Shown here one piece after another: positions 11,124 to 38,610 of a DNA stretch of 64,000 nucleotides. The notes under the pieces are model-generated. The model did no database searches. It was not told the origin of the DNA and was given only the letters and a program-made list of their open reading frames with translations. A program made the translations under genes and the position numbers. The first letter of the stretch is position 1. Every line of letters starts with the position of its first letter. The stretch comes from Kaistia algarum. Its GTDB lineage: Bacteria > Pseudomonadota > Alphaproteobacteria > Rhizobiales > Kaistiaceae. Location of the stretch: the NCBI RefSeq assembly GCF_026343945.1, contig NZ_JAPKNJ010000004.1:1-64000 (forward strand). Direction: 5' to 3'.

Positions 11124-12056
11124 ATGGATCCGCAGCGCCTCGGCCTCGTTTCTCCGCGTCTCCATTATTTCCAGCTCGTGGCCCGGCTCGGCTCAATCCG
11201 GGAGGCGGCGCGGATGCTTAACATCGCGCCTTCCTCGATCAGCCGCGCGATCTCGCAATTCGAGGAAGAGCTCGGCGCGCCGCTGTTCGATCGCGCCGGA
11301 GGCAGGCTGAAGCTGACCAGCGCCGGCGAATTGATGCTCTACCATGCCCGCTCCAGCGGGACGGAACTGGCGCGCGCCGTGAAGGAGATCGGCGAATTGA
11401 AGGGCCTGCGCCGAGGCTCGTTCGCCATCGCCGTCATCGAGAGCGTGGCGCGGGGACCGATGCCGGACGTGCTCGCCACCTTCTGGCAGCGCCACCCCGA
11501 CATCGCGGTCGATGTGCGCATTGCCGATTCGCAGCATGCCTTCGAGGCGGTAGCGGAAGGCGATTGCGAGATCGGCGTCGCCTTCGATACGCGCACGCCC
11601 CGTCGGACCGAGCGCCTGGCCGGCGCGGAGATCGGCATCGGCGCCCTGGTCCGGCCCGACCATCGGCTGGCGCGACAGCCATCGCTCCGCCTCTATGAAC
11701 TGGCCGGCGAACGCGTGCTTCTTTCCGACCGCAGCCTGACTCTCGGCCTTTCGGTCGAGGAGGCCCTCGAAGGCTCGGTGGTGGGCTTCCTGAAACGCAC
11801 GCGCACCAATTCTATCGAACTGATGGTCGATCTGGCGCTGCGCGGCCTCGGCGTTGCGCTGCAGACCCGCGTCGGCGTCGAGCGCGAACTGGCACGGGGC
11901 GACCTCGTCTTCGTTCCGGTCCGCGACCCGCGCCTGAAGCCGCGCAAGCTGGTGCTGGTCACGGGCCGTAAGGCCGAGATCTCGGAAGCGGCCTTGGCGC
12001 TCGCCACCCTGCTGGTCCACCGCATCGAGGCGATGGACGAACGCGAAAGCGGATAG
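11124..12056 (+). CDS. LysR family regulator, probable controller of the downstream catabolic operon
   Basis: A 310-residue LysR protein. The winged helix lies at about 8-65 (YFQLVARLGSIREAARMLNI and ISQFEEELGAPLFDRAGG), and the effector domain from about 90. A gap of only 51 bases separates it from the cupin gene, which starts a same-strand nine-gene operon. Regulation of that operon by this protein is therefore likely, though LysR genes are more often divergent. The gap itself contains no clear terminator. Confidence 0.85.
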   Translation: MDPQRLGLVSPRLHYFQLVARLGSIREAARMLNIAPSSISRAISQFEEELGAPLFDRAGGRLKLTSAGELMLYHARSSGTELARAVKEIGELKGLRRGSFAIAVIESVARGPMPDVLATFWQRHPDIAVDVRIADSQHAFEAVAEGDCEIGVAFDTRTPRRTERLAGAEIGIGALVRPDHRLARQPSLRLYELAGERVLLSDRSLTLGLSVEEALEGSVVGFLKRTRTNSIELMVDLALRGLGVALQTRVGVERELARGDLVFVPVRDPRLKPRKLVLVTGRKAEISEAALALATLLVHRIEAMDERESG

Positions 12057-12107: not shown

Positions 12108-12635
12108 ATGCCGCCGATGAAGATCGATCCGAACCCACGAATGCCCTACCAGTTGCCGATGCCGAAGGAGACGCTGCCGGACATCGTCATTCCAAAGGCC
12201 GTGCCGGAGGACGAGCGCATCTGGGTGCCGCAGGGCGAGCGCGTCTGGTTTCGTCCGCTCTGCCTCAACCGCTCGCAGGGCTATTGGATGAACCTCTTGC
12301 GGGTCCGCAAGTCCGGAGTCCTCAGCCGACATCGCCATCCCCAGGCGGTGCATGGCTATGTCATCAAGGGCCGCTGGCACTACCTTGAGCATGACTGGGT
12401 CGCCGAGGAAGGCGGCTATGTCTTCGAGCCCCCGGGCGAGACCCATACGCTCGTCGTCCCCGACGATGTCGAGGAGATGATCACGCTCTTCCAGGTCAAC
12501 GGCATTATGTATTACGTCGATGCCTATGGCGAACCGCTCGGCTTCGAGGACGTGTTCACCAAGATCGACATGTGCCGCGAGCATTACACCAAAGTTGGCC
12601 TCGGCGCCGATTACGTCGACCAGTTCATCCGGTAG
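12108..12635 (+). CDS. Cupin dioxygenase of the 2,4'-dihydroxyacetophenone dioxygenase (DAD) family
   Basis: A 175-residue single-domain cupin. Candidate metal ligands are visible: H75 and H77 in SRHRHPQAVHGYVIKG, H82, then E111 and H113 in PPGETHTLVV. DAD cleaves the side-chain carbon bond of 2,4'-dihydroxyacetophenone using non-haem iron and O2, giving 4-hydroxybenzoate and formate. The family similarity is good but the substrate may differ here. It is the first gene of the operon, preceded by AGGGAG and an ATG at 12108. The 131 bases to the next gene are the longest gap inside the operon. Confidence 0.72.
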   Translation: MPPMKIDPNPRMPYQLPMPKETLPDIVIPKAVPEDERIWVPQGERVWFRPLCLNRSQGYWMNLLRVRKSGVLSRHRHPQAVHGYVIKGRWHYLEHDWVAEEGGYVFEPPGETHTLVVPDDVEEMITLFQVNGIMYYVDAYGEPLGFEDVFTKIDMCREHYTKVGLGADYVDQFIR

Positions 12636-12766
12636 GCGGCTCGCCGGCGGCTGCAGCGCGCCACATTTGGCGCCTGTTGCTTCCTAAGCAACAACGCATT
12701 CGATTTTCTGGATCTATGCGCATCGCTGCCGCTTTGCGATGGTGCGTCCAGTCACGAGGGAATGCG

Positions 12767-13267
12767 ATGAAGCCAAGCGCCGTCGATGCGGTGATCCGGG
12801 GATTGAAGAAGGCCGGCGTCTCGATCGTCTGCTATCTGCCGGATTCGCTGTTCAAGCCACTCTATCCGGCGCTCGACGCCGATCCCGACATTCGCACCAT
12901 CCGCGTCACCAATGAGGGCGAGGGCGCGGCGATCTGCGGCGGCGTCTTCCTCTCCGGCAAGCGCGCCGCGCTGGTCATGGAGAATTCGGGCTTGCGCGCC
13001 TCCGTCGAACCGCTGGCCCGCATGGGGCTCGGAGCCGGCATCCCGGTCGTCATGCTGATGAGCTATCGCGGCGAGATGGGTGAGAATAATTGGTGGGCGA
13101 TCCCGCACGGCATCACCATGGAGCCGGTGCTGAACGCGCTGCGTATCCCCTACCGCGTCGTGCGCGAGGAGGACGAGATCGAGCGGGCGATCACGGACGC
13201 CTATGACTGGTCCTATGCGTCCTACTATCACAGCGCCGTGGCGCTCGGCGGGAGCGTCGTGCGATGA
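12767..13267 (+). CDS. TPP-dependent decarboxylase, alpha (PYR-domain) subunit
   Basis: A 166-residue protein matching the N-terminal domain of phosphonopyruvate and sulfopyruvate decarboxylases (ComD type). The conserved acidic residues that activate thiamine diphosphate lie in VTNEGEGAAICGGVFLSGK (E50/E52), followed by the MENSGL block typical of this family. The frame extends upstream to 12572, but that part overlaps the cupin gene. The ATG at 12767 follows GAGGG and is preferred. It overlaps the next gene by four bases (ATGA), so the two subunits should be made together. It would decarboxylate a 2-oxo acid. Confidence 0.78.
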   Translation: MKPSAVDAVIRGLKKAGVSIVCYLPDSLFKPLYPALDADPDIRTIRVTNEGEGAAICGGVFLSGKRAALVMENSGLRASVEPLARMGLGAGIPVVMLMSYRGEMGENNWWAIPHGITMEPVLNALRIPYRVVREEDEIERAITDAYDWSYASYYHSAVALGGSVVR

Positions 13268-13872
13268 AACGCTATGACTGCATGAAGGCCTTGGCCGCCC
13301 GCCTCAAGGGCGAGCTGGTCATCCTCTCGCTCGGCGCCAGCGTCGATGAATGGTACAACGCCGCGCCGCATATGCGCGAGGCGAGCCTCTTTCAGCAGCA
13401 GCTCGGCTGCGTCACCCCGGAAGCGTTCGGGCTGGCCGTCGGCCTGCCGCATCGGCGTATCGTCTCGCTCGATACCGACGGCGGCATGATGTTCAATCTC
13501 GGCATCCTGGCGACGCTCGGCAATGAGCAGCCGAAGAACCTCTTCATCGTCGTCTGGGACAATGAAATGTACCAGTCGATCGGCGGCCCGCCGACGCATA
13601 CGGCCTTCGGCCGCGTCGACATCGCGGCGATCGCCCGCGGCGCCGGCATCGAGAACGCGTTCACGGCGCTGACAATCGAGGAATTCGACGAGCATTGCGC
13701 CAAGGGACTCGCCGCCGAGGTGCCCTATGTCGTGGTCGCCAAGGTCTCCGGCACGGTGCAGCCCGACATCAAGCGCAAGCATTCGGACGGCCGCGAGGAC
13801 AAATATATCTTCGTGCGCCATGTCGAGGCGAGCGAGGGCATCACCATCATGGGCCCGAGCGAGCACAATTGA
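13264..13872 (+). CDS. TPP-dependent decarboxylase, beta (TPP-binding) subunit
   Basis: A 202-residue partner of the preceding subunit, matching the ComE or C-terminal domain of phosphonopyruvate decarboxylase. The diphosphate/Mg2+ motif G-D-G-x(26)-N appears as T71-D72-G73 with N100 in WDNEMYQS. The first glycine is replaced by threonine, but the Asp and Asn Mg2+ ligands are kept. The usual STGGQ block reads SIGGPPTH. Together with the alpha subunit it forms the split active site. It is followed after 13 bases by the GMC oxidoreductase. Confidence 0.78.
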   Translation: MKRYDCMKALAARLKGELVILSLGASVDEWYNAAPHMREASLFQQQLGCVTPEAFGLAVGLPHRRIVSLDTDGGMMFNLGILATLGNEQPKNLFIVVWDNEMYQSIGGPPTHTAFGRVDIAAIARGAGIENAFTALTIEEFDEHCAKGLAAEVPYVVVAKVSGTVQPDIKRKHSDGREDKYIFVRHVEASEGITIMGPSEHN

Positions 13873-13885
13873 TGGCCCTGAACTG

Positions 13886-15445
13886 ATGCCCTATGTCGGC
13901 GCAGCCTCCGAGCTTCTTCCCGCCTACGACTTCATTGTCGTCGGCGGCGGCTCGGGCGGCTCGGTCATGGCACGACGCCTTGCCGACGGGAGCGACGCCA
14001 CCGTCCTGCTGATCGAGGCGGGACCGCTCGATCTCGGCCTCGAGGCTATCGACGATCCGACGAAATGGGTCAGCCTGACGCGCGGACCCTATGATTGGGG
14101 CTATGATTATACGCCGACGCCCCATGTAAACGGCCGCACCATCGGCATACCGCGTGGGCGTGTGCTCGGCGGCTCCTCATCGATCAACGCGATGATGTGG
14201 TATCGCGGCCACCCGTCCGATTATGACGCCTGGGAAGCAGCGGGCGCGACCGGCTGGAACTTCGCGTCCTGCCTGCCCTATTTCAAGCGCTGCGAGGATT
14301 GGGTGGACGGCGAGACCGAATTTCGCGGCGTCGGCGGTCCGCTCAGGATCGAGCGCAGTGCCGATCCGCATCCGCTTGCGATCGCGCTCCGCGACGGTGC
14401 GATCGAGCTAGGCATGTCCCCGGTCGACGACCCGAACGGCCCGCTGAACGAGGGCGCGACACTCTCCAATTTCAACATCGCGGCGGGCGAGCGCTGGAGT
14501 TCCGCCCGCGGCTATCTGCGCCCCGTCGCGAACCGCGCCAACCTCACCATCCTGACCGGCTCGCTGGCGACGACGCTCGGCTTCGAAGGAACGCGCTGCG
14601 TTTCGGTCACCCATATCGTCGAAGGCGTCGCCGTCACGACGCGGGCGAGCCACGAGATCATCCTCGCCCTCGGGGCGATTGACACGCCGCGCCTGCTCTT
14701 GAATTCCGGCATCGGCGACCCGGCCGATTTGATGCGGCTCGGCATTTCGGTGCATACCGCGCTTCCCGGCGTGGGCCAGAACCTGCAGGACCATCCTTTG
14801 GTCCGCGCCGTGAATTTCCATTCGAAGCGCCCGATGGGGCCGATGCGCGACAATGGCGGCGGCTCGATGCTCAATTGGAAGAGCCGACCGGAACTCGCCA
14901 AGCCGGACCTGCACGCTTTCCCGATCCAGGGCCGCAGCGCCGTGCCGGAGATCGCCGGGACGCACGATCTATCGGGCGATGTGTTCGCGGTCGCCGCCGG
15001 TCTGATGGGCTCGACGAGCGTCGGCTATCTGAAGCTGCATGAAGCGGGACCTGACGGCCGCATCGAGATCCAGCCGAACTATCTGGCCGAAAAGGACGAT
15101 CTGGACGCGCTGGTCACCGGCGTCGAATTCGTCCTCGATCTCGCCGGCACGACCGCCTTTGCCGATCTTTTTGCCGGCTACGCCGCGCCCTCCGGCCGAC
15201 TTTGTCGGGCCAAGACGGTGGAATTCGTGCGCAACGCGTGCTCGACCTTCTTCCACACCTGCGGAACGGCCAAGATGGGCCTGGATGAGGAAGCCGTCGT
15301 CGACCCGGCGCTCAAGGTGCACGGCATCGAGGCGCTGCGCATCGCCGACGCCTCGGTGATCCCGCTCATCCCGACCTGCAACACCCATTCGGTGGTAACG
15401 ATGATCGCCGAGCGCGCGGCGGATCTCGTGTTGGCAGGATCCTAG
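13886..15445 (+). CDS. GMC family FAD-dependent alcohol oxidoreductase (choline dehydrogenase-like)
   Basis: A 519-residue GMC oxidoreductase. The FAD Rossmann motif is at about residues 17-22 (VVGGGSGGSVMARRLA). GMC signature 1 is seen in PRGRVLGGSSSINAMMWYRG and the second signature around LALGAIDTPRLLLNSGIG. The C-terminal catalytic block has the base H in TCGTAKMG and N/H in TCNTHS. It oxidises a primary or secondary alcohol to a carbonyl. The frame runs upstream into the decarboxylase gene; the ATG at 13886 gives MPYVGAASELLPAYDFIVVG, the normal distance to the FAD motif. In context it may feed the aldehyde dehydrogenase at the operon end. Confidence 0.85.
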   Translation: MPYVGAASELLPAYDFIVVGGGSGGSVMARRLADGSDATVLLIEAGPLDLGLEAIDDPTKWVSLTRGPYDWGYDYTPTPHVNGRTIGIPRGRVLGGSSSINAMMWYRGHPSDYDAWEAAGATGWNFASCLPYFKRCEDWVDGETEFRGVGGPLRIERSADPHPLAIALRDGAIELGMSPVDDPNGPLNEGATLSNFNIAAGERWSSARGYLRPVANRANLTILTGSLATTLGFEGTRCVSVTHIVEGVAVTTRASHEIILALGAIDTPRLLLNSGIGDPADLMRLGISVHTALPGVGQNLQDHPLVRAVNFHSKRPMGPMRDNGGGSMLNWKSRPELAKPDLHAFPIQGRSAVPEIAGTHDLSGDVFAVAAGLMGSTSVGYLKLHEAGPDGRIEIQPNYLAEKDDLDALVTGVEFVLDLAGTTAFADLFAGYAAPSGRLCRAKTVEFVRNACSTFFHTCGTAKMGLDEEAVVDPALKVHGIEALRIADASVIPLIPTCNTHSVVTMIAERAADLVLAGS

Positions 15446-15475
15446 CATGTCGACGGCAGCCACAAGGAATTGCAC

Positions 15476-16849
15476 ATGACCGACACCATCTATGCCGCCG
15501 ATTTCCTCCTCACCATGGATGCCGACAACCGGACGATTCCGGACGGCGCGATCCTCGTCTCCGGCAATGCCATCATCGCGGTGGGGACAGCCTCGGAGCT
15601 GACCAAGGCGCATCCGAAGGCGAAGCTCGTCCGCCTCAAGGACCGCCTCATCATGCCGGGACTGATCAACGCCCACATGCATTCGGGCTTCCTGCGCGGC
15701 ACGGCCGAGCATCTGCCGGTGTGGGACTGGCTAACGCTGCATATCAACCCGATGCACCGCATGCTGCAGCCGCACGAGGCCGAGGCGGCGTCGTTCCTCT
15801 GCTATGCCGAGAGCGTCCTTTCCGGCACGACGACCTTGGTCGACATGTGGCGCTTCATGGATGGCAGCGCCCGGGCCGCAAGCGCGATCGGCAATCGCCT
15901 CGTCGCCGTGCCCTATGTCGGCGAGCATCCCGACTATGATTATTTCGACACGCTCGACGACAATGAACGGATGATCCAGGAATGGCGCGGCAAGGCGGAT
16001 GGCCGCATCGACGTCTGGGTCGGGCTTGAGCATCTCTTCTACGCCGATGAGGCCGGCCAGCGCCGCGCCATCGACATGGCGAAGCAATACGATACTGGCT
16101 TCCATACCCATTGCTCGGAATCGAACATTGAGGCGGCCGAGTTCCAGAAGCGCTATGGCAAGAAGGCGATGTTCGTTCTCGACGATCTCGGCTTCTTCGA
16201 AACGCCCAAGGCGATGATGGCCCATGCCGTCTGGCTCGAAGAGGACGAGGTCGATCTGATCGCGCGGCGCGGCGTCTCGGTCGCGCATAATCCGGTCTCC
16301 AACATGAAGCTTGCCAGCGGCATCGCGCCGATCGATGCGATGCTGGCGGCCGGTGTCGCGGTAGGCGTCGGTACGGATGGCGAGAAGGAGAACAACAATC
16401 TCGACGTCTTCGAGGAGATGAAGGTCGCCTCGCTGCTAGGCAAGCTGAAGAGCCTCGACGCCGCGGCTCTCGATAGCTGGCGGGCCTTGGAGATGGGCAC
16501 GATTCGCGGCGCCCGCGCCATCGGCAAGGCCAACGAAATCGGCTCCCTGGAAGTCGGCAAGAAGGCCGATTTCATCGCGGTCCGCACCGACACGCCGCGC
16601 ATGACGCCGCTCTTCGGCGAGGGCGAATATTTCAATTTGCAGCACAATCTCGTCCATGCCGTGCGCGGCGGCGATGTCGACATGACGGTGATCGACGGCA
16701 AGGTCGTGGTCGAGAACGGTGAGCTCAAGACCGGGGACATGAAGGAGCTGATCGCCCGCATCCACGACGTCGCGCCCGCCCTGTTCGCACGGAGGAAGGC
16801 CTGGCTGGCGGAGAACAATCAGGGGACCAAGCAATGGACGAAGGGGTGA
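15476..16849 (+). CDS. Amidohydrolase of the AtzA/TrzA/SsnA deaminase group
   Basis: A 457-residue TIM-barrel metal hydrolase. The first metal ligands are H67 and H69 in INAHMHSGFLRG. Further ligands lie in THCSES (about residue 211), the HNPVSNMKLASG block (about 270) and the Asp of VGTDGEKENNNLDVFEEMK (about 298). This set matches mononuclear deaminases and dechlorinases acting on triazines, guanine, cytosine and similar N-heterocycles. It probably removes an amino or other leaving group from a nitrogen ring. An upstream TTG (15470) is in frame, but the ATG at 15476 has AAGGA at 15464-15468 at good spacing. Confidence 0.82.
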   Translation: MTDTIYAADFLLTMDADNRTIPDGAILVSGNAIIAVGTASELTKAHPKAKLVRLKDRLIMPGLINAHMHSGFLRGTAEHLPVWDWLTLHINPMHRMLQPHEAEAASFLCYAESVLSGTTTLVDMWRFMDGSARAASAIGNRLVAVPYVGEHPDYDYFDTLDDNERMIQEWRGKADGRIDVWVGLEHLFYADEAGQRRAIDMAKQYDTGFHTHCSESNIEAAEFQKRYGKKAMFVLDDLGFFETPKAMMAHAVWLEEDEVDLIARRGVSVAHNPVSNMKLASGIAPIDAMLAAGVAVGVGTDGEKENNNLDVFEEMKVASLLGKLKSLDAAALDSWRALEMGTIRGARAIGKANEIGSLEVGKKADFIAVRTDTPRMTPLFGEGEYFNLQHNLVHAVRGGDVDMTVIDGKVVVENGELKTGDMKELIARIHDVAPALFARRKAWLAENNQGTKQWTKG

Positions 16850-16859
16850 GGATGGGCGG

Positions 16860-17729
16860 ATGACCAAGACCACCGATCCCGTCGCGCTCGATGCCTGGTA
16901 TGCCATCGAAACCTCGACCGACCTGACCGCCGCGCCGATCCGCCAGCGGCTGCTGGGCCAGGACCTGACGCTGCGGCGGCTGGAGGATGGCACGGCCGAC
17001 GTGCGCGAAATCCGGGAAGGCGGTGCGCTCGGCCCCGCCCTGCCAGTCCAGGAGCGCTATGGCTGCGTCTGGACGACGTTGGGCTATCCCACGCGCGACA
17101 TCTGCGACATTCCGGAATCGCGCGAGGACGACCGGCGCTTCGTCCCCTGCGGCTGGGTGATGCTCCGTGCCTCGGGCCTGCGCATCGTCGAGAACTTCCT
17201 CGACATGGCGCATTTCCCGTTCGTCCACACCGATATCCTCGGCGCCGAACCCTATACCGAGGTGCCGCACTATCATTCCGAGATCCGCCGCGACGTCGAC
17301 GAGGTCTGGGCGACGAACTGCACCTTCTTCCAGCCCCGCATCGCCGCGACGGAGGACAAGGGCGATTTCGTCCATCTGACCTACCGCGTCCCCTCCCCCT
17401 TCATCGTGATGCTGTACCGCATCTGCCCGACCTCGCCGAACCGACTCGATGCCATCGCCCTGTTCATCCAGCCAATCGAGGAGGATCTCTGCCGCTGCCA
17501 GCCGATCATGTATCTGGTCGACGACCGCTCGAAGCACATCGACCTCTTGAATTTCGAGCAGGTCATCTTCCTGCAGGACAAGATCATCGTCGAGAACCAG
17601 CGCCCGCTGCTGTTGCCGCTGGAGCCCCGCGCCGAAATCCCGACCCGCGCCGACAGTTCCTCCGTCGCCTATCGCCGCTGGCTGAAGGAAAAGGGCATCG
17701 TCTACGGCACCACCGGAAAGGCTGCCTGA
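16860..17729 (+). CDS. Rieske-oxygenase-like catalytic protein lacking the Rieske [2Fe-2S] domain
   Basis: A 289-residue protein that aligns by motif with the C-terminal catalytic half of Rieske non-haem iron oxygenase alpha subunits. The mononuclear iron motif is intact: ENFLDMAHFPFVHTDILG with D115, H118 and H123, corresponding to the bridging Asp and two His ligands of naphthalene dioxygenase. The N-terminal Rieske cluster motif (C-x-H...C-x-x-H) is absent; no C-x-H exists anywhere in the protein and only about 110 residues precede the iron motif. The upstream gene ends 10 bases before the ATG, so no hidden Rieske domain fits. How it would receive electrons is unknown; the FeS subunit encoded two genes later is one possibility. 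The third iron ligand cannot be placed by eye. Confidence 0.75.
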   Translation: MTKTTDPVALDAWYAIETSTDLTAAPIRQRLLGQDLTLRRLEDGTADVREIREGGALGPALPVQERYGCVWTTLGYPTRDICDIPESREDDRRFVPCGWVMLRASGLRIVENFLDMAHFPFVHTDILGAEPYTEVPHYHSEIRRDVDEVWATNCTFFQPRIAATEDKGDFVHLTYRVPSPFIVMLYRICPTSPNRLDAIALFIQPIEEDLCRCQPIMYLVDDRSKHIDLLNFEQVIFLQDKIIVENQRPLLLPLEPRAEIPTRADSSSVAYRRWLKEKGIVYGTTGKAA

Positions 17730-17733
17730 CGGT

Positions 17734-20700
17734 ATGGATACCGCTCCCCTCCGCGTCCTCCGCCCCGCTACGCTGGCCGAAGCCTCGGCGCTGGTGGCCG
17801 ACGGCGCGGTGCCGGTGGCGGGTGGGACGCTGATCCAGCTCGTCTGGGCGCGCGGCGAGGCGCAGCCAGCGCTGCTCTGCGATCTGTCGCGCCTTCCGAT
17901 CTCCGGCATCACGGAGACGCAATGCAGGCTGCGCATCGGCGCGCTGACAAGGCTTTCGGCGATTGAAGCCAGCGCTGAGGTCTCGCTGCGCCTGCCGCTG
18001 CTGGCCAAGGCCGTGCTCGCCGTCGCCGCACAACCGGTGCGCCGGCTGGCGACTCTCGGCGGCAATCTCGCGGGCAAGATCGGTTGTCTCTATCCGGCGC
18101 TTCTCGCCCTCGACGCCACCATCGAGATCTTCGCCGACGGCGCCATCGCCGAGCGTCCGCTGCTCGATGCACTCGCTTTGCCGAACGGCGCCATCCTCAC
18201 CGCCATCCTTGTCCCGGTCCAAGGCGATGCCGAGCGTTGGTCCCATCGCAAGACCGGGCTGCGCGCCGCCTTCACGCCGAGCGTCATCGGCGCCGCCGGC
18301 CGCCTCGTTCTCGATGGCGGGCGGATCGCTGCGGCCCGCCTCGCCGTCGGAGGTGGCATCACGACGCCGCAGCGCCTCGTCGAGGCGGAGGCGCTGCTGG
18401 TCGGCTCGCCTGTCGATGCCGTCGACTGGCCGGCCGTTCATGCGACGCTGCTGGCGTCGATCGACACGGCAGGCGACCCATTCCGCAGCGCCGCCTATCG
18501 CCGCCGCGTCGCCGCCAATGCTCTCCTCGCCGGTCTGGGTGGAGCCGTACTGCGTCGCTCTGTGCGCAAGCACGCCTCCCCCGCGCCGCATGACCGGCCC
18601 GACGATGCCGTCGAGGTCTCGCATGCGGCGCTGGCGAGCCGCTGGGCCGTGCGCCCCGACATCGATGCGAAGGTGCGCGGCGGTCTCGAATATCTCACCG
18701 ACCATCGCGAACCCGGCATGCTGGTCGGGCGCATTCTCCGGGCCGGCGTGCCGCATGCACGGATCCTGGCGATCGACACATCCGCCGCCGAGGTGCTGCC
18801 GGGCGTCGTCGCCGTGGTCACCGCCGCCGATATCCGGGGCGACAACGCCTTCGGCATCATGGAAGCCGACCAGCCGGCACTCTGCTTTGACAAGGTTCGC
18901 CATCGCGGCGATCCGGTGGCGGCCGTCGCCGCGATCGATGCCGAGACGGCCGAGAAAGCCCTCGCGCTGGTCCGCGTCGACTATGAACCGCTGCCGACCG
19001 TCACCGACATGGAAGCGGCGCTGGAGCCGGACGCGCCGGCGATCCACGACAAAGGCAATCTCCGCGCCGAGTTCCGCCACCATCGCGGCAACATCGCGTC
19101 TGCCTTTGCGCGCGCCGCCCATATCGTCGAGGCGACTTATGTGACGCCGCGCCAGATGCACGGCTTCATGGAAACCGAGGGCGGCTATGTCGTGCCCGGC
19201 GTAGACGGCTCGCTCCTCGTCTGCGTCGGCGGACAGCACGGCACGCGCGACCGGAATCAGCTTGCGAAGATCCTCGGCTATCCCGAGGAAAAGATTCGCG
19301 TCGTGACTTCACCCACCGGTGGAGCGTTCGGCGGCAAGGACGAACTGACGGTACAGCCGGCTCTGGCCCTGCTGGCGTTGAAATCCGGCAAGCCGGTCCG
19401 CCTGCACCTCGATCGCTATGAATCGGTACTGGCCGGGATCCGCCGCAATCCGATGCGGATCCGCATGAAGACCGCGTGCGACGCGGATGGCATGCTGCTG
19501 GCGCAGGAGGTCGATGTCCTCTCCGAATGCGGCGCCTATGCCTCGCTCAGCCCCGCCGTGCTGGAAACGGCGCTGGAGCATGTCGCCGGCCCCTATGTCA
19601 TCGCCAATATCGTGAGCCGGGGCCGCCTCGCCTATACGAATAACGGCCTTTGCGGCGCGTTCCGCGGCTTTGGCGCCAACCAGATGGTCTTTGCGATCGA
19701 GAGCCAGATGGGGCGCCTCGCTGACCTTTGCGGGCTCGATCCGGCCGAGATGCGGCGGCGGAACCTACGCGAGCCCGGCTCGCCCGGCTTTTTCGGCCAT
19801 GAGGTGGCGCCGACCGATCGGCTGGACGAGGTGCTGGACGCGGCGAGTACGAACCGTCTCTGGGCGATGTCTCGCGGTCCCCTCCCCGATGGACGCATCG
19901 CCGGCGTCGGCATGGCGCTGCATCATCAGGGCACCGGCCTCGGCTCGCTGCCGCATGATCCGGGCGGCGGCAGGCTGACCTTCCGTTCGGACGGCAAAAT
20001 AGAAGCCGCCTTCGGCCTCGATGAGATGGGCCAGGGCGTGATGACGGCGATCCAGGCCTCGGTCGCGAAGGCTCTCGGCTGCGGTCGGGACGATGTCGTG
20101 CCGGTGGTCGGTGATACCGCCCGCACGCCGGAATCGGGCTCGACCACGGCGGCGCGTGCGACCTATGTCGTCTGGCGCGCCTCGGGGGAGAGTTCCGCCA
20201 TTCTCGGTCCCAAGCTCAAGGCCGAAGCGGCCGAACGGCTCGGCGTTTCGGCGGAGGATCTCGCGATCGTGCCGGGCGGCTTTGCCGATGCGCGCTCCAA
20301 TAGCGGCGAGGTACTGCTCTCCTTCGCCGATCTGGCAGCCAGACTGGATCCGGAAGCGCTGCCGACCGCGTCGAGCGAGTTTCACTTTCCGGCGGCCGAC
20401 TACAAACATGGCAATTCGCGCTACGTCTTCTGCTTCGGCGCGGCCGTGGCGCGCGTCGCCGTCGATCCGATCAGCGGCGAAATCCGCGTCCTCGATCTCG
20501 ACCAGCACATCGCCGCGGGGCCGATCGTCGATCCGGCCGCCTATCTCGGCCAGATCGAGGGCGGCGGCGGCCAGGGCCTCGGCTTCACGCTGACCGAGGA
20601 TGCGGTGATGCAGGACGCCGCCTATGTCACGCGAAACTTCGATAGCTACATGATGCCCTCCATCCGCGACGCGCCGCTCACGAGCCGCACCACGGCGCTT

Positions 20701-20874
20701 GAATCCCTCGACGAAGGCGATCCGCACGGGCCTCGCGGCGTCGGGGAGATCGGCATCGGCGCGGTGACGCCGGCCATCGCGGCGGCGATCGCCGATGCGA
20801 TCGGCTTCTGGCCGGAGGTGACGCCGATTGCGCCCGAGGCGATCCTCGATGCTCTGCAACGGGTGAACCGATGA
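17734..20874 (+). CDS. Molybdenum hydroxylase: fused FAD (CoxM-like) and Mo-cofactor (CoxL-like) subunits
   Basis: A 1046-residue xanthine-dehydrogenase-family protein. Residues 1 to about 275 are the FAD-binding medium subunit, with the AGGT loop (VPVAGGTLIQ) and LATLGGNLAG. From about 300 it is the molybdopterin subunit: SPTGGAFGGKDE, GAFRGFGANQM, GGGQGLGFTL and the C-terminal active-site loop GVGEIGIG with the catalytic Glu. The usual M and L subunits are separate genes, so the fusion is unusual. Together with the next gene it should hydroxylate an N-heterocycle or aldehyde using water, passing electrons Mo to FeS to FAD. No XdhC-type maturation gene is present in the window. Confidence 0.87.
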   Translation: MDTAPLRVLRPATLAEASALVADGAVPVAGGTLIQLVWARGEAQPALLCDLSRLPISGITETQCRLRIGALTRLSAIEASAEVSLRLPLLAKAVLAVAAQPVRRLATLGGNLAGKIGCLYPALLALDATIEIFADGAIAERPLLDALALPNGAILTAILVPVQGDAERWSHRKTGLRAAFTPSVIGAAGRLVLDGGRIAAARLAVGGGITTPQRLVEAEALLVGSPVDAVDWPAVHATLLASIDTAGDPFRSAAYRRRVAANALLAGLGGAVLRRSVRKHASPAPHDRPDDAVEVSHAALASRWAVRPDIDAKVRGGLEYLTDHREPGMLVGRILRAGVPHARILAIDTSAAEVLPGVVAVVTAADIRGDNAFGIMEADQPALCFDKVRHRGDPVAAVAAIDAETAEKALALVRVDYEPLPTVTDMEAALEPDAPAIHDKGNLRAEFRHHRGNIASAFARAAHIVEATYVTPRQMHGFMETEGGYVVPGVDGSLLVCVGGQHGTRDRNQLAKILGYPEEKIRVVTSPTGGAFGGKDELTVQPALALLALKSGKPVRLHLDRYESVLAGIRRNPMRIRMKTACDADGMLLAQEVDVLSECGAYASLSPAVLETALEHVAGPYVIANIVSRGRLAYTNNGLCGAFRGFGANQMVFAIESQMGRLADLCGLDPAEMRRRNLREPGSPGFFGHEVAPTDRLDEVLDAASTNRLWAMSRGPLPDGRIAGVGMALHHQGTGLGSLPHDPGGGRLTFRSDGKIEAAFGLDEMGQGVMTAIQASVAKALGCGRDDVVPVVGDTARTPESGSTTAARATYVVWRASGESSAILGPKLKAEAAERLGVSAEDLAIVPGGFADARSNSGEVLLSFADLAARLDPEALPTASSEFHFPAADYKHGNSRYVFCFGAAVARVAVDPISGEIRVLDLDQHIAAGPIVDPAAYLGQIEGGGGQGLGFTLTEDAVMQDAAYVTRNFDSYMMPSIRDAPLTSRTTALESLDEGDPHGPRGVGEIGIGAVTPAIAAAIADAIGFWPEVTPIAPEAILDALQRVNR

Positions 20875-21371
20875 GCGAGACCATCGCCTTCCGTTTGAAC
20901 GGCACGGAGGTCGCCTTCACGGCGGCGCCGGATACTCGCCTGATCGACCTGATCCGCGAGGAGGCCGGCGCGACCGCGACCAAGGCCGCCTGCCGGATCG
21001 GCCGGTGCGGCTCCTGCTTGGTGCTGAAGGATGGCGAGGCGGTGAATTCCTGCCTCGTAATGGCGTATCAGTTGGAAGGCACGACAATCGTCTCGGCCGA
21101 GGGCCTCGCCGCCGTGCCCGCGGCGGAAATCGTGCGCGCAGCGTTGATCGCCGACGTCTCGTTCCAGTGCGGCTATTGCGCCCCCGGCTTCACCATCGCG
21201 CTCACCGCGCTCCTCTCCCAGAACCCGGCGCCCGACGACGAGGCGATCCACACAGCGCTCGAAGGCAATATCTGCCGCTGCACCGGCTATCTCTCGATCC
21301 TGCGTGGTGCGAAGGCGGCGGTCGCAGCGCTGGCGGGCAGAAGCGCATCCGAACAGGACAATCCCTCATGA
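20871..21371 (+). CDS. Molybdenum hydroxylase [2Fe-2S] subunit (CoxS-like)
   Basis: A 166-residue iron-sulfur subunit. The plant-ferredoxin-type cluster uses C41, C46, C49 and C61 (ACRIGRCGSC ... NSC). The second, helical cluster has CGYCAPGF and CRCTGY. It passes electrons between the Mo centre and FAD of the fused subunit encoded upstream, whose stop it overlaps by four bases (ATGA). It also overlaps the aldehyde dehydrogenase start by four bases. The first Cys is preceded by Ala where Gly is usual; all ligands are present. Confidence 0.9.
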   Translation: MSETIAFRLNGTEVAFTAAPDTRLIDLIREEAGATATKAACRIGRCGSCLVLKDGEAVNSCLVMAYQLEGTTIVSAEGLAAVPAAEIVRAALIADVSFQCGYCAPGFTIALTALLSQNPAPDDEAIHTALEGNICRCTGYLSILRGAKAAVAALAGRSASEQDNPS

Positions 21372-22882
21372 CCCTCCACATCGCTCCCGTCGCGCCGAAG
21401 ACCGAAAGCGCCCGCGCCTTCCTCGCCACAGGACCGAAGCGCCTACTCATCGACGGCGAATGGATCCTCCCCGCCTCCGGCCGCCACTTTGCCAGCATCG
21501 ACCCGGCCACGGGCGCGACGCTCGCGATGATCGGCGAGGGCGACGCCGCCGATGTCGATGCGGCGGTGGCGAGCGCGCGGCGCGCCTTCACGAGCGACGC
21601 ATGGCGCGGCATGACGCCGACCAACCGGGGCCGGCTGCTCGGCAAGATCGCCGACCTGATCGAGGCGCATGCGGACGAACTCTCCGAGATCGAGACGCTC
21701 GATCAGGGCAAGTCGCTGAAAACGGCACGCTTCGGCGAGATTCCCGGCGCGATCGCCCAATTCCGCTATTATGCCGGCTTCGCCAACAAAATCCTCGGCG
21801 AGACGATCCCGACCTCGATCGGCTACCAGCCTCCCGGCAAGAAGATCTTCGCCTATACGACCCGCGAGCCAGTTGGCGTCGTCGCCGCGATCACGCCGTG
21901 GAACTCGCCGCTGCTGATGGCGTCGATGAAGCTTGCCCCGGCGCTGGCTGCCGGCTGCACCGTGATCCTCAAGCCGGCAGAAGACACCTCGCTCACCGCG
22001 CTGCGGCTCGGCGAACTGATGATCGAGGCCGGATTGCCGAAGGGTGTCGTCAACATCGTCACCGGCTATGGACGGACGGTCGGCGCGGCGCTCGCGGCCC
22101 ATGACGGCGTCGACAAGATCGGCTTCACCGGCTCGACGGCCACCGGCAAGGCGCTGCTCGGTGCGGCGCAGGGCAATCTGAAGCGGCTGACGCTGGAACT
22201 TGGCGGCAAGTCGCCTGCGATCGTGCTCGCCGATGCGGACCTGAAGCTCGCCGTTCCCGGCGTTGCACGCGGCATCTTCGCTAATGGCGGCCAGGTCTGC
22301 GTCGCCGGATCGCGCGTCTATGCACATCGGTCCATCTATGACGCGCTGGTCGAGGGGCTGGCCTCGGAAGCCACGAAACTGAAGCTCGGCCACGGCCTCG
22401 CACCGGATACCGACCTCGGCCCGCTGGTCTCAAGACGCCAGGCCGACCGCGTCGCTTCCTATGTCGAGGGCGGCCGCGCGGATGGCGCCGAGATCGTTGC
22501 GGGTGGCCGGCAGGATGGCGAGTTCGGAACCTTCTTTGAGCCGACCATCGTCACCAACACCCGGCCTGACATGGCGCTGATGCGCGAGGAGATCTTCGGC
22601 CCGGTCGTCGCCGTCACACCCTTCGACGAGACCGACGAGGTTCTGGCGCTCGCTAATGACAGCCGCTACGGCCTCGCCGCCAGCCTCTGGACCGAAAGCC
22701 TGTCGTCGGCCCACCGCATGGCGGCCGAGATCCGCGCCGGCACGGTCTGGATCAACTGCCACTCCTATTTCTCGCCCGAGCTGCCCAAGGGCGGCCATAA
22801 GGAATCCGGCTGGGGTTATGAGAACGGCGCGCAGGGGCTGGAGAATTATCTGGAGACGAAGACGGTCTGCGCGGTGATTTGA
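21368..22882 (+). CDS. NAD(P)+-dependent aldehyde dehydrogenase
   Basis: A 504-residue aldehyde dehydrogenase. The oxyanion-hole Asn is in ITPWNSPL, the cofactor loop in GFTGSTATGK, the general base Glu in LELGGKSP and the catalytic Cys in GGQVCVAGSRVY. EEIFGPV and the C-terminal GGHKESGWG are present, as in betaine-aldehyde and semialdehyde dehydrogenases. It oxidises an aldehyde to the acid, probably the last step of the operon pathway. The ATG at 21368 overlaps the FeS-subunit stop by four bases; longer upstream frames are shadows of that gene. Confidence 0.9.
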   Translation: MTLHIAPVAPKTESARAFLATGPKRLLIDGEWILPASGRHFASIDPATGATLAMIGEGDAADVDAAVASARRAFTSDAWRGMTPTNRGRLLGKIADLIEAHADELSEIETLDQGKSLKTARFGEIPGAIAQFRYYAGFANKILGETIPTSIGYQPPGKKIFAYTTREPVGVVAAITPWNSPLLMASMKLAPALAAGCTVILKPAEDTSLTALRLGELMIEAGLPKGVVNIVTGYGRTVGAALAAHDGVDKIGFTGSTATGKALLGAAQGNLKRLTLELGGKSPAIVLADADLKLAVPGVARGIFANGGQVCVAGSRVYAHRSIYDALVEGLASEATKLKLGHGLAPDTDLGPLVSRRQADRVASYVEGGRADGAEIVAGGRQDGEFGTFFEPTIVTNTRPDMALMREEIFGPVVAVTPFDETDEVLALANDSRYGLAASLWTESLSSAHRMAAEIRAGTVWINCHSYFSPELPKGGHKESGWGYENGAQGLENYLETKTVCAVI

Positions 22883-24845: not shown

Positions 24846-25598
24846 TCAAAGACCGAGGCGGCGCGAGGAATTCCGCAGATGCGACCGCATCGCGTCGGCG
24901 GCGGCGCCGGGATCGCGCGCGCGGATCGCCTCGAAGATCGCACGATGCTCGCGCTCGGAAATCGCTCGCGTTTGCGCGAAATCGAGCGAGCGCAGGGCGA
25001 CATAGATGCTCTCCTTGAGCTTCACATCGACGAAGGCGATGAACAGCGCAACGAAAGGGTTCTTCGTCGCCGCGGCGACGGCGCGGTGGAAAGAGATATC
25101 CGTCTCGACATAGTCGCGGTGCAGTTCGTCCACCTTCGCCATGTCGTCGATGCAGCGTTCGATGTCGGCGAGATCCTCGCCCGTGCAATGCTCGGCCGCC
25201 ATGGCCGCGGCACCGCTCTCAAGGATCAGGCGCAGATCATAGAGATGACGGTAGTCCTCGGGGTCGGCGAGGCTGTTGGGCTCCAGCGTCAGCGAATTGG
25301 CCGCGTCCGGCGAGGCGACGAAAACGCCCAGCCCCTGGCGCGACACGACCAGCCCCTCATGGCGCAGCTTGGCGATCGCCTCGCGGATCACGGCCCGGCT
25401 GACGCCATGCTCGGCCGCGAACTCCTGTTCGGTCGGCAGCCGGTCACCCGGCTTCAGCGCCCCGCGTACGACCTGCTCCCGGATGAAGCCGGCAACCTGG
25501 GCTGGCAGGCCGAGCCGCATGACCTTGTTCGGGGGCTTCTCCAAATGTCCTGCCCTTCCTGCCGGCGCGACGGCCTCGCCGTCGCGCATTCGTTCCAT
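24846..25598 (-). CDS. GntR family regulator, FadR/FCD subfamily
   Basis: About 250 residues. The N-terminal winged helix is seen in AGFIREQVVRGALKPGDRLP and EFAAEHGVSRAVIREAIAKL. The C-terminal FCD helical domain has a metal- and ligand-binding set of Asp/His residues, including YDLRLILESGAAAMAA, DISFHRAVAAATKN and SEREHRAIFEAI. Such regulators usually sense a sugar acid, lactate or amino acid. The start is uncertain: TTG 25616 overlaps the SDR stop, and ATG 25598 or 25589 are alternatives; I used 25598. It most likely controls its own operon and the divergent lldD-type gene through the motifs at 30193-30203 and 30580-30608. Confidence 0.87.
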   Translation of the reverse strand: MERMRDGEAVAPAGRAGHLEKPPNKVMRLGLPAQVAGFIREQVVRGALKPGDRLPTEQEFAAEHGVSRAVIREAIAKLRHEGLVVSRQGLGVFVASPDAANSLTLEPNSLADPEDYRHLYDLRLILESGAAAMAAEHCTGEDLADIERCIDDMAKVDELHRDYVETDISFHRAVAAATKNPFVALFIAFVDVKLKESIYVALRSLDFAQTRAISEREHRAIFEAIRARDPGAAADAMRSHLRNSSRRLGL

Positions 25599-25612
25599 CG
25601 ACCCGCGAATCC

Positions 25613-26383
25613 TCAAACGCCGAGCGCTGCCCGGAGCCCGCCATCGACAGCATAGTCGGAACCGGTCGAAAAGCTCGAGCGCGGGCCGGCGAGGTAGGCG
25701 ATGAGTTCGGCGACTTCCGCGATGGTGCCGACGCGGCCGATCGGATGGCCGGCGCCGAAGCCCTTCAGCGTTTCCTCCGGATCACCGCCCGCCGGCGTCA
25801 TCTCGCGTGCAGCGAATTCGAGCATCGGCGTGCGGATCGAGCCCGGCGAAATCGAATTGACGCGGATATTGTCCTTGGCGCAATCGACCGCCATCGCCCG
25901 TGTCAGCGCATGCACGGCGCCCTTCGAGGTCGCATAGGCCAGCACGTTGCGCTGGTTCATATGCCCCTGCACCGAGGCGAGATGAATGATCGAGCCGCCG
26001 CCGCGCGCCTTCATCAGCGGATAGAGCGCATGCGACATCAGATAGCAGGAGCGAAGATTGACGTTCATCACCTGGTCCCAGGCGTCGGGCGTCGTCGTCT
26101 CGATCGTGCCATAAGGCTGGATCGCCGCCGTATTGACGAGGATATCGACGCCGGCATGCTTGAGCTTCTCGGCGAGCGCGAAGACCTCGTCGTCCTTGGA
26201 TACGTCGAGCGTCTCGACGGTGATGTGCCGTCCGGCCGTGATCGAGGCGGCATTGCGGTTATGCGTCTCGTCGATACCGCAGAGGTGCACCTTGGCGCCA
26301 AGTTCGGCGAGCTTCAGCGCCGCGCCGAGCCCAATGCCGCTGCTGCCGGTGACGACCGCGATCTTTCCCGAAAGTTCGCTCAT
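25613..26383 (-). CDS. Short-chain dehydrogenase/reductase
   Basis: A 256-residue classical SDR. The cofactor loop is TGSSGIGLG (12-20), followed by NTAAIQPYG, the catalytic Ser in ASVQG, and Tyr-x-x-x-Lys in AYATSKGA. The C-terminal GSDYAVDGGL is typical. It resembles gluconate 5-dehydrogenase and other sugar or polyol dehydrogenases. In the operon with a sugar ABC transporter it probably oxidises the imported sugar or sugar acid. The exact substrate cannot be told. Confidence 0.83.
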   Translation of the reverse strand: MSELSGKIAVVTGSSGIGLGAALKLAELGAKVHLCGIDETHNRNAASITAGRHITVETLDVSKDDEVFALAEKLKHAGVDILVNTAAIQPYGTIETTTPDAWDQVMNVNLRSCYLMSHALYPLMKARGGGSIIHLASVQGHMNQRNVLAYATSKGAVHALTRAMAVDCAKDNIRVNSISPGSIRTPMLEFAAREMTPAGGDPEETLKGFGAGHPIGRVGTIAEVAELIAYLAGPRSSFSTGSDYAVDGGLRAALGV

Positions 26384-26408
26384 GGATTGTTCTTCCTCCC
26401 TTTCCGCC

Positions 26409-27392
26409 TCATGCCCGCGCGCCCATCCTGAGCACGCCCTCGTTCACGCGCTTGTCGACCACGACAGCGGTGATCAGCACAAGCCCCTGCGCCACATATT
26501 GCCAGAATGGTTCGACGCCGGAGAGGTTTAGTCCATTGGAAAGCACGCCGACGATCACAGCGCCGATCACCGTGCCGAAAATGCGCCCCTCGCCGCCGGA
26601 CAGGCTGGTGCCACCGATGATCACCGCCGCGATCACCTCCAGCTCGAAGCCGACGCCGATATTCGGGTCACCCGAGCCGACGCGCGTCGAGAGCACGAGC
26701 CCGGCCAGCGCCGCCATGACGCCCGAGAGCACATAGAGCGTGATCAGCGTGCGCTCGACATTGACGCCGGAAAGCCGGGCCGCCTCCTCATTGCCGCCGA
26801 CGGCGTAGATGTGCTTGCCGAACTTGGTCGCCCGGCTGACCCAGGCATAGACGGCGACGACGATCGCGGCGAGCACGATCGGCACCGGCAGCGGCCCGAG
26901 GCTCGACGTGCCAATCGAGCCCCAATTGCGCGGCAGGCCGACGAGGATCGCGCTCGGCGTGATCAGATAGGCGATACCGCGGGCGATGTTGAGCGCGCCG
27001 AGCGTCACGATAATCGGCGACACCCGCATCTTGACGATGATGGCGCCATTGGCGAAGCCGATGACGGCGCCGAGCGCCAGCGCCCCGGCAAAGGCGATCG
27101 GCAGCGGCACACCATGGACGGCTAGCGTCGCGGCGACCACGGAAGCCGCCGCCAGCACGCTGCCGACGGAAAGATCGAGCCCGCGCGCGATCATCACCAT
27201 CGTCATGGCGCTGGCCGAGATGATCAGCGGCGCGGTGTTGCGGGCGACGTTCTGGAAATTGGCGAGCGTCAGGAAGCGCTGGTTGAAGAAGCTGAAGACG
27301 ATGATCATCGTGATCAGCACCAGCAGCGTTACGACGGTCTGCAGGCGCTGGCGATCGGCGATGATCCAGCGGATGGCCGGGTTGGTATTCAT
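26409..27392 (-). CDS. Sugar ABC transporter permease (RbsC type)
   Basis: A 327-residue, highly hydrophobic permease of the CUT2 (ribose-type) group. It carries the hallmark blocks GLDLSVGSVLA, VGGNEEAARLSGVNV and GGTSLSGGEGRIFGTVIGA. About eight to ten membrane segments are expected. It pairs with itself and the RbsA-type ATPase encoded just upstream. The start could be the ATG at 27392 or one at 27443, which overlaps the ATPase gene by 17 bases; I chose the former because it matches family length. Confidence 0.88.
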   Translation of the reverse strand: MNTNPAIRWIIADRQRLQTVVTLLVLITMIIVFSFFNQRFLTLANFQNVARNTAPLIISASAMTMVMIARGLDLSVGSVLAAASVVAATLAVHGVPLPIAFAGALALGAVIGFANGAIIVKMRVSPIIVTLGALNIARGIAYLITPSAILVGLPRNWGSIGTSSLGPLPVPIVLAAIVVAVYAWVSRATKFGKHIYAVGGNEEAARLSGVNVERTLITLYVLSGVMAALAGLVLSTRVGSGDPNIGVGFELEVIAAVIIGGTSLSGGEGRIFGTVIGAVIVGVLSNGLNLSGVEPFWQYVAQGLVLITAVVVDKRVNEGVLRMGARA

Positions 27393-27426
27393 GATGTCGG
27401 TCGGCTCGTGGAGGGAACGGGACGGG

Positions 27427-36126: not shown

Positions 36127-37008
36127 TTACGGCATTGCGGGCGGGGGTGGCGGGCGCTTGCCGTCAATGAAAGCGAGGGTAAGCAGTTTCGCCGGCCGCG
36201 AAGTTCTGGCGTCGGGCGCTACATATTGCAGCGCCTCAAGGAGATAGGCCGGGTCCTTCGCCGCATACCAGGCCGCCGACGCCACGGCGCGGAGCGGCGC
36301 TGGGACGGCGGGGTCCGAGAACTCGGCCGGCAGGGGAGGCGCCTTTTTCGGCGCCACGAAAGTCAAGGTCTGACGAACGACGTCGGCGCCGGAGGCGATC
36401 TCGATTCGGTAGGTGCCTGCCTTCCAGTCGATTTCCGGGGTGGCCCACAATCCGCCCGACGCGCGGCCCTCCGCTACCCGCTTTGCGCCCTTCGCGAGAA
36501 TCTGGATGTCGACGGTTCGCGGCGTAGACCAGCCGATCGAAAGCTTGCGACGACCGGCGACCAGCGTCTGCGGCGTGGCAAACAGCGGCGCGATGAGCTC
36601 CTTGCCGTCGTCGCCGCGGATCGAAGCCGTGACCTGCTGGCGCTGTTCGTCGTCGAAGACCGCGACCGAGCCGCTGGTCCAGCTGAACAGCCCTGACCAG
36701 AACCCCTTCTCCGGCACTTCGGCGGTGATCGGAACGCTCTGGTTGGCCTGCGAGATCACCACCGGGTCATCGCGGCCGACGAGGCGCAGCGTAATGCTGC
36801 CCGTGGGGTCCCTTACCTGGATCAGGTCTCCGTTCAGGATCGGCTCGAGGATCGCGACCTTTTTCGGCACGCCGTCGCTGACGATCGAATATCCGTCGGC
36901 GCCGCGTTCGAAACTCTCCACATAGCCGATCTCGACGGCCTTGCCGCTCGCCAGTGCCGTTCCAGCCGAAAGGACGACCAGCGCCAGAGCCACGATCCAA
37001 CGGATCAT
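36127..37008 (-). CDS. FecR-like periplasmic protein
   Basis: A 293-residue exported protein with a signal peptide (IVALALVVLSAGTALA). Residues about 25-100 resemble the FecR domain: EPILNGDLIQVRDPTGSITLRL is the typical strand-turn-strand with a D-x-G-S-x-x-x-L-pattern. The middle (about 110-230) looks like a beta-rich, Ig-like domain, and the C-terminus is proline-rich. The remainder is not recognised. The start overlaps the CHASE2 gene stop by four bases (ATGA), so the two are made together and probably interact. Confidence 0.6.
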   Translation of the reverse strand: MIRWIVALALVVLSAGTALASGKAVEIGYVESFERGADGYSIVSDGVPKKVAILEPILNGDLIQVRDPTGSITLRLVGRDDPVVISQANQSVPITAEVPEKGFWSGLFSWTSGSVAVFDDEQRQQVTASIRGDDGKELIAPLFATPQTLVAGRRKLSIGWSTPRTVDIQILAKGAKRVAEGRASGGLWATPEIDWKAGTYRIEIASGADVVRQTLTFVAPKKAPPLPAEFSDPAVPAPLRAVASAAWYAAKDPAYLLEALQYVAPDARTSRPAKLLTLAFIDGKRPPPPPAMP

Positions 37009-38507: not shown

Positions 38508-38610
38508 CCGACGTCTCCCCCATTCCGGCGGATCAACGCTGCGACAGCTTCGCGCTGACTTCAAGCACGAAGGTAGATCGCCGCGCCGTCACCGCCGGGG
38601 AGACTAAGAC

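Follow-up and report, generated by a model that had tools for sequence, protein, structure and literature searches.

The first 64,000 bp of a 344,656-bp contig (C4; NZ_JAPKNJ010000004.1) in the 5.26-Mb genome of Kaistia algarum, referred to here as the window, contain a nine-gene operon. We suggest, with a probability of roughly 60%, that a modified purine-type base or nucleoside is broken down by a two-module catabolic system of which this operon is one half, and in which the product of one of its genes, ox1, serves as a subunit of a split Rieske oxygenase. The genes run in the order cupin, TPPa and TPPb (the two subunits of a thiamine diphosphate (ThDP) enzyme), GMC (a flavoprotein), AH (an amidohydrolase), ox1, XdhM and XdhS (a molybdenum hydroxylase) and ALDH (an aldehyde dehydrogenase). 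The split of the oxygenase, the complementary motifs of its halves, their co-occurrence, the conserved neighbourhood and the purine deaminases are computed results. The unfused split form is widespread, its two halves having lost opposite sites, and subunit swapping, electron transfer and scaffolding by a glutathione S-transferase (GST)-like protein become testable in environmental bacteria. The genes also point to a purine-type pathway, no account of which was found, and to a ThDP clade that evolves slowly and has no known function. An earlier reading of the window (the original prediction), which proposed a catabolic operon for a nitrogen heterocycle or substituted aromatic, is partly supported as a whole; its statement that no described pathway has this gene set agrees with the literature searched, outside which most subscription papers lay.

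The two oxygenase halves

Both metal sites of Rieske oxygenases normally lie in one chain. This canonical alpha-subunit layout, with both domains together, was found in neither protein considered here: ox1 has the VanA_C domain only and its partner the Rieske domain only. Ox1 keeps an iron motif (N112..D115..H118....H123, plus D240) whose residues correspond to the iron ligands and the bridging aspartate of naphthalene dioxygenase. Among oxygenase matches above 150 bits, NxxDxxHxxxxH followed by a later QD was present in 89 of 89 family members, the window included, and the Rieske motif in none (0/89); among Rieske matches above 60 bits, the Rieske motif was present in all 80 partner proteins. 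A Foldseek search with an AlphaFold2 model of ox1 (38 alignment rows, pLDDT 86) returned the saxitoxin enzymes SxtT/GxtA as best hits, followed by dicamba monooxygenase and NdmA. In alignments with SxtT the cluster-binding part of the Rieske domain is missing from ox1, and the N-terminal strands of that domain seem to persist. Judged by its sequence, ox1 is predicted to be the iron-bearing half of a split Rieske oxygenase from which the [2Fe-2S] subdomain has been lost. The original prediction had correctly described an oxygenase relative without a Rieske domain in a catabolic operon, but the other half, encoded elsewhere, had gone unnoticed.

The candidate for that other half is a stand-alone Rieske gene at C4:299977-300672, whose 231-amino-acid product has Rieske as its sole Pfam domain and is 52% identical to an R. 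tumorigenes protein. It belongs to a partner module ~280 kb from the operon on the same contig, which also encodes a GST-like protein (C4:299354-299974), a BMP-family ABC transporter, another Rieske-less oxygenase (ox2) and two deaminase-type proteins, one an adenosine deaminase and the other adenine-deaminase-like (AdeC-like). The absence of a transporter, noted originally, holds within the cluster but not for the system, as the BMP-family transporter lies in the partner module of the same genome. A model of the Rieske partner of a relative (locus L063) has the complete fold of a Rieske oxygenase, its catalytic domain being shrunken. The Rieske half probably feeds electrons to ox1, and one electron-delivering half appears to be common to the two catalytic subunits, ox1 and ox2.

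The distribution of the genes was examined by tblastn in 88 loci. Eighty of these were the best of 526 that a genome scan had picked out with an ox-type oxygenase profile; L005 and L007-L012 added seven more, and the window completed the set. It should be noted that the 80 loci are not independent, since several pairs lie on one contig, that each locus reaches only ~10 kb to each side, and that the identity thresholds in the association counts are our own choice. Among the 43 ox1 loci, which include the window, TPPa, TPPb, AH, XdhM and XdhS were each found in 40, GMC in 42, ALDH in 36, a LysR homologue of at least 45% identity in 36, and the cupin gene in the window alone. The operon is more than a chance arrangement because its gene set recurs in relatives: eight of the nine genes form a conserved operon in Alphaproteobacteria, and the cupin gene is a local addition. 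Scattering of the genes in close relatives, raised in the original prediction, was checked and not found: among 397 genomes of the order TPPb occurs in 6, and among 385 of the class in 2 (K. algarum being counted in both), and in all six of the order the starts of ox1 and TPPb are no more than ~4.1 kb apart, K. algarum included. According to record titles, carriers include Rhizobiales, Rhodobacterales, Methylorubrum, Telmatospirillum, Komagataeibacter and Rhodococcus. The Komagataeibacter (L057) and Rhodococcus (L092) loci hold the oxygenase, Rieske, GST, ThDP, GMC, ALDH and BMP-type genes in one cluster, with no ox2 seen within ~20.8 kb; the molybdenum hydroxylase and amidohydrolase of L092 are more distant paralogues. 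Another record, L097, is titled Rhodococcus sp. JCM 9791 and was assigned a cyanobacterial lineage when the tree was made, so that its taxonomy or label is doubtful.

Rieske and GST genes lie within 38 of the 43 ox1 loci and 41 of the 44 ox2 loci. The five ox1 loci lacking them are the window, L021 and L022 (none within 10 kb), L046, which begins 2.6 kb before ox1 at a contig end, and L097, a 6.9-kb contig; for L021 and L022 the search for a Rieske partner covered the 20-kb locus, and genome G293, apparently of the same species as L021, has one. Thirteen genomes were compared, the six with TPPb and seven congeneric ones lacking it: ten have both ox2 and the Rieske gene, and three have neither. 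Ox1 never occurred without ox2 and the Rieske gene (6/6 genomes), and a GST gene was found in all four of these six in which it was checked. Four genomes of the genus carry ox1, and their modules lie ~280 kb apart (K. algarum) or on different contigs (three genomes). In G334 and G237, by comparison, they adjoin as one divergent locus. One arm of this locus in G237 (L154) carries guaD-like, amidohydrolase, ox2 and 8-oxoguanine-deaminase-like genes and an ABC transporter with a BMP protein, while the opposite arm carries genes for a small protein, Rieske, GST, AdeC-like and LysR proteins, TPPa, TPPb, GMC, AH and ox1. The modules being joined in other genera, we therefore regard the window operon as one arm of such a locus. 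The small protein (~79 amino acids; L007 5270-5509 and homologues) is conserved and encoded upstream of the Rieske gene; it was found in 33 of the 43 loci with ox1 and in 40 of the 44 with ox2, and its L009 counterpart resembles acylphosphatase, below the cut-off.

Relation to known enzyme systems

In the report on NdmCDE, NdmC has no Rieske cluster, NdmD is a reductase with an extra one, and NdmE is a GST-like protein needed for solubility and activity, the three being presented as the first described case of a Rieske domain split off; ndmCDE homologues of unassigned function are listed for 18 further organisms, beyond the closest three mainly Sinorhizobium and Mesorhizobium (PMC4408171). The present system, as read from genes alone, shares the Rieske-less catalytic subunit, the Rieske cluster on another protein and the GST-like third protein. 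Ox1 is 41-44% identical to three NdmC-type proteins from plasmid loci of Pseudomonas putida, Klebsiella and Paraburkholderia caffeinilytica (a naming of our own, from layout and identity), and identities between the K. algarum GST-like protein and four NdmE-type proteins are 34-45%. The Rieske protein matches NdmD-type proteins at 41-43% over 111-116 amino acids (L101, L103) and at 28% over 205 (L105), with no real match to that of L102 as annotated. However, this Rieske subunit stands alone, no NdmD-like reductase fusion was found when the K. algarum genome was searched with an NdmD-type protein, the genes form two unlinked modules, and the operon adds genes for the ThDP enzyme, GMC, ALDH, the molybdenum hydroxylase and AH.

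In a tree calculated after near-copies had been thinned (88 rows, with 78 of the 89 oxygenases kept), ox1 (39 rows, support 100/99), ox2 (37 rows) and NdmC (3 rows, 99/99) formed separate clades; having only four full-length outgroup rows, on very long branches, the tree does not establish that the Rieske-less group arose once. The idea that ox1 is a true NdmC was rejected on account of its separate clade, and by analogy ox1 is expected to work like NdmC although it is not classed as one. In the P. caffeinilytica locus the NdmC-type gene (L102 10001-10843) is annotated from 10160, and this start is probably too late because the frame matching the family is already open at 10001. The caffeine-type clusters L101, L102 and L105 are flanked by genes annotated as 2-oxoglutarate- or isopenicillin-synthase-type oxygenases, and DIOX_N-type 2-oxoglutarate/Fe(II) oxygenases likewise lie beside L046 (8539-9606), L092 (12321-13313) and L062 (7553-8533).

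By both sequence and fold, the best solved relatives of ox1 are SxtT and SxtDIOX (GxtA) of saxitoxin biosynthesis, whose substrate is a guanidine-rich fused N-heterocycle; they differ in being single chains with their own Rieske domain and in being biosynthetic. PDB sequences matching the ox profile at E<=1e-8 were solely enzymes of saxitoxins and methylxanthines, both of them N-heterocycles. HpxD, a subunit of a molybdenum-independent xanthine hydroxylase, is a further Rieske-family protein annotated as acting on a purine (26-27% by tblastn); unlike HpxD, ox1 lacks a Rieske domain and lies in an operon that encodes a molybdenum hydroxylase. The xanthine dehydrogenase PucCDE provides the best-scoring NCBIfam models for the molybdenum, FAD and iron-sulfur parts of that hydroxylase, but the operon enzyme is below all three cut-offs (pucC 153 against 306.05) and has its FAD and molybdenum domains in one chain.

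The ThDP pair is the most constrained and least explained part of the operon. Median identity to the window was 91% for TPPa, 87% for TPPb, 74% for ox1 and 57% for XdhM (38-40 loci, leaving out the window, L092 and L097). The same split is known from sulfopyruvate decarboxylase ComDE and phosphonopyruvate decarboxylase (~166- and 202-amino-acid subunits, TIGR03845/TIGR03846), but TPPa scored 105.9 bits against TIGR03845 (cut-off 147.95) and TPPb 90.1 bits against TIGR03846 (cut-off 221.5), and a wide identity gap separates the pair from other plasmid-borne relatives. In plasmid records, 6 of 67 TPPb matches were 80-91% identical and 61 were below 60%, with none above 36% among the 34 of those 61 that were listed.

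A deaminase with the TadA/guanine/adenosine-deaminase fold precedes TPPa in L021 (the same as L113) and L152 (the same as L153); elsewhere among the loci compared, the only find was a 40% match in L147. The deaminase before TPPa in G293 has 163 amino acids and the same sequence as the one in L021, Kaistia dalseonensis. This deaminase is not a core gene, because it was found before TPPa only in L021 and L152. Locus L152 (5125-10609), on a plasmid of Hyphomicrobiales bacterium UR115, has, besides TPPa/TPPb, a LysR gene of the type seen at the operon, the deaminase and an ABC transporter of the NMT1/THI5 type. Deriving the substrate from other contexts of TPPb was tried, and the one without ox1 (L152; G436 has the same coordinates) left the question unsettled.

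Substrate, proposed pathway and rival explanations

The evidence on the substrate comes mainly from the partner modules. The K. algarum adenosine deaminase scored 287 against TIGR01430 (cut-off 216.55), the narrower PRK09358 models not being reached, and its AdeC-like protein scored 346.3, under the cut-off of 472.5. In L059 both guanine deaminase (392, cut-off 375.4) and 8-oxoguanine deaminase (596.8, cut-off 532) passed. Cut-offs were tested on L059 for the former and on L059 and L092 for the latter, and the remaining loci were counted at an identity of at least 40%, at which guanine deaminase homologues occur in 31 and 8-oxoguanine deaminase homologues in 15 of the 44 ox2 loci. The purine deaminases around ox2 point to a modified purine-type substrate, for which we would give odds of about two in three. 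The PnrA-like type, to which the BMP transporter belongs, is known for purine nucleosides. This purine-type neighbourhood upholds the predicted N-heterocycle and lends no support to a substituted aromatic or hydroxyacetophenone.

We infer complex formation, the direction of electron flow, every reaction and the substrate as follows. The compound would enter through the BMP-family transporter. A reductase would pass electrons to the stand-alone Rieske subunit, which would hand them on to the mononuclear iron of ox1, and the GST-like protein would hold the two halves together in the way proposed for NdmE with NdmC/NdmD. The reaction of ox1 would be an oxygenation of the substrate, most likely an N- or side-chain hydroxylation that leads to dealkylation, AH would remove a ring amino group and XdhM/XdhS would hydroxylate a ring carbon. 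GMC and ALDH could then convert a side-chain alcohol to the aldehyde and the acid, and TPPa/TPPb may decarboxylate, or ligate, a 2-oxo acid made from the side chain. We also entertain, tentatively and at somewhat less than even odds, a plug-in platform in which one Rieske subunit with a withered catalytic domain and one GST-like scaffold would serve at least two interchangeable ox subunits in trans, within an undescribed side-chain-purine pathway ending in the new ThDP clade.

Several observations weigh against a two-module purine system. Purine deaminases adjoin ox2 and not ox1: at 40% identity, the 43 ox1 loci hold guanine deaminase once, 8-oxoguanine deaminase three times and adenosine deaminase four times. 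AH, XdhM and XdhS of the ox1 operon miss the curated purine cut-offs, and GMC, ALDH and TPPa/TPPb are unexpected in plain purine or methylxanthine breakdown. L152 offers a second context for TPPa/TPPb, with no match to ox1, GMC or AH within 20.6 kb. No reductase gene is linked to the operon, and when the K. algarum genome was searched with an NdmD-type protein, the matches other than those to Rieske parts were all weak (contigs C8 and C2); the best of them, on C8, looks like an ordinary protein of the ferredoxin-reductase kind. The pathway, moreover, is read from genes. The 8.1-kb contig C8 includes an open reading frame (ORF) resembling a ferredoxin plus flavin reductase (L142 570-1580), recognised by its sequence and the weak NdmD match; it is a possible, unproven electron donor.

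Two other purine substrates were considered, and we regard both as unlikely. A side-chain-bearing adenine, such as a zeatin-type cytokinin, would have its N6-CH2 bond cut by ox1 to give adenine, which AdeC and AH would deaminate, with GMC and ALDH oxidising the hydroxylated C5 fragment. The adenine-deaminase-like and adenosine deaminase genes of the K. algarum partner module fit this scheme, GMC and ALDH suit a primary allylic alcohol, and many carriers are Rhizobium and other genera that are often plant-associated. However, the scheme has no role for TPPa/TPPb, other carriers are the marine genera Celeribacter, Pacificibacter and Roseibium, and no report of Rieske enzymes acting on cytokinins was found in the literature searched. 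Demethylation of a plain N-methylpurine (methylxanthine, 7-methylguanine or methyladenine) in the manner of NdmCDE, with GMC, ALDH and TPPa/TPPb handling the formaldehyde, would agree with the NdmC-type proteins being the closest functionally characterised relatives and with the formaldehyde genes that stand beside ndmCDE-type genes in the caffeine-type cluster of L102. Here the separate ox1 clade is hard to accommodate, GMC and two-subunit ThDP enzymes are not known to serve in formaldehyde removal, and the annotated stretch of L007 lists no such genes, for which the ox1 loci were not searched.

Somewhat less credible still is an amino-pyrimidine or pterin, for example hydroxymethylpyrimidine, of which GMC and ALDH would oxidise the hydroxymethyl group, AH would remove the amino group and the molybdenum enzyme would hydroxylate the ring. 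The resemblance of GMC to pyridoxine 4-oxidase, among others, the deaminase before TPPa in L021 and L152 and the NMT1/THI5-type transporter of L152 speak in its favour, whereas the guanine, 8-oxoguanine, adenine-like and adenosine deaminases of the partner modules are purine enzymes. Finally, the lack of a Rieske cluster domain could mean that ox1 is a decayed or regulatory paralogue and that the pathway runs on the molybdenum hydroxylase, AH and the ThDP enzyme alone. This seems highly improbable, given that all 89 relatives keep the iron motif, that a Rieske partner occurs in all six ox1 genomes and a GST gene in all four checked.

Gene layout, the cupin gene and other loci

As originally described, nine plus-strand ORFs, all of them open, lie between 12108 and 22882 with a LysR gene upstream, which likely regulates the operon, and 4-base overlaps occur at three junctions (TPPa/TPPb, XdhM/XdhS and XdhS/ALDH). 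The remaining gaps are 131 bp (cupin-TPPa), 13 bp (TPPb-GMC), 30 bp (GMC-AH), 10 bp (AH-ox1) and 4 bp (ox1-XdhM). The family of each operon gene is borne out by Pfam, and the TPPa start at 12767 is more likely than the longest-ORF start at 12572.

Table 1. Genes of the operon and its putative regulator, in window coordinates
Gene	Coordinates	Strand	Product	Pfam domains
LysR	11124..12056	+	LysR-type regulator	HTH_1 + LysR_substrate
cupin	12108..12635	+	cupin protein	Cupin_7
TPPa	12767..13267	+	N-terminal half of two-subunit ThDP enzyme, sulfopyruvate-decarboxylase-alpha-like	TPP_enzyme_N
TPPb	13264..13872	+	C-terminal half of the same ThDP enzyme	TPP_enzyme_C
GMC	13886..15445	+	GMC flavoprotein alcohol oxidase/dehydrogenase	GMC_oxred_N/C
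AH	15476..16849	+	amidohydrolase, aminohydrolase (deaminase) type	Amidohydro_1
ox1	16860..17729	+	predicted Rieske-less mononuclear-iron subunit of split Rieske oxygenase	VanA_C only
XdhM	17734..20874	+	fused FAD + molybdopterin subunit, xanthine-dehydrogenase-family hydroxylase	FAD_binding_5 + CO_deh_flav_C + Ald_Xan_dh_C + MoCoBD_1/2
XdhS	20871..21371	+	2x[2Fe-2S] subunit of molybdenum hydroxylase	Fer2 + Fer2_2
ALDH	21368..22882	+	NAD(P)-dependent-type aldehyde dehydrogenase	Aldedh

Relatives of GMC in the PDB include alcohol oxidase 8rpg and choline oxidase besides pyridoxine 4-oxidase. The top NCBIfam models for AH are N-ethylammeline chlorohydrolase and 5'-deoxyadenosine deaminase, both under their cut-offs; against the equivalogs it scored 323 for 5'-deoxyadenosine deaminase (cut-off 522) and 210.3 for MTA/SAH deaminase (cut-off 779), reaching neither, and its best PDB match is 4f0r, an MTA/SAH deaminase. 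The top models were pucD for XdhM (691.8 bits, cut-off 783.65) and StyD for ALDH (600.5 bits, cut-off 850), and XdhS scored 165.4 bits against pucE, under the cut-off of 254.3.

The cupin had been counted originally as a dioxygenase and a member of the operon. It has no NCBIfam match, its 'dioxygenase' label coming from the fold alone, and it stands at the operon in 1 of 43 ox1 loci. In four of the five other TPPb genomes, copies 87-94% identical lie on a contig other than that of TPPb, and the fifth has no copy. A conserved gene follows these copies in 3 of 3 examined, of the short-chain dehydrogenase type in the one scanned. The cupin gene is probably a passenger outside the core pathway. 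Aromatic or hydroxyacetophenone degradation was dropped because its basis, the cupin, is not conserved at this place. Once the cupin is discounted, there is no obvious ring-cleavage enzyme among the operon genes.

Two other loci of the window deserve mention. A gene for a TPR-CHAT protein of 937 amino acids (33310-36123) lies near one for a CHASE2-domain protein on the opposite strand (37005-38564). On the minus strand, 24846-28941 carries genes for a GntR/FCD regulator, a short-chain dehydrogenase, a BPD_transp_2 permease and an ABC ATPase, near an FMN-dependent dehydrogenase gene (30619-31770), and this looks like a separate catabolic locus.

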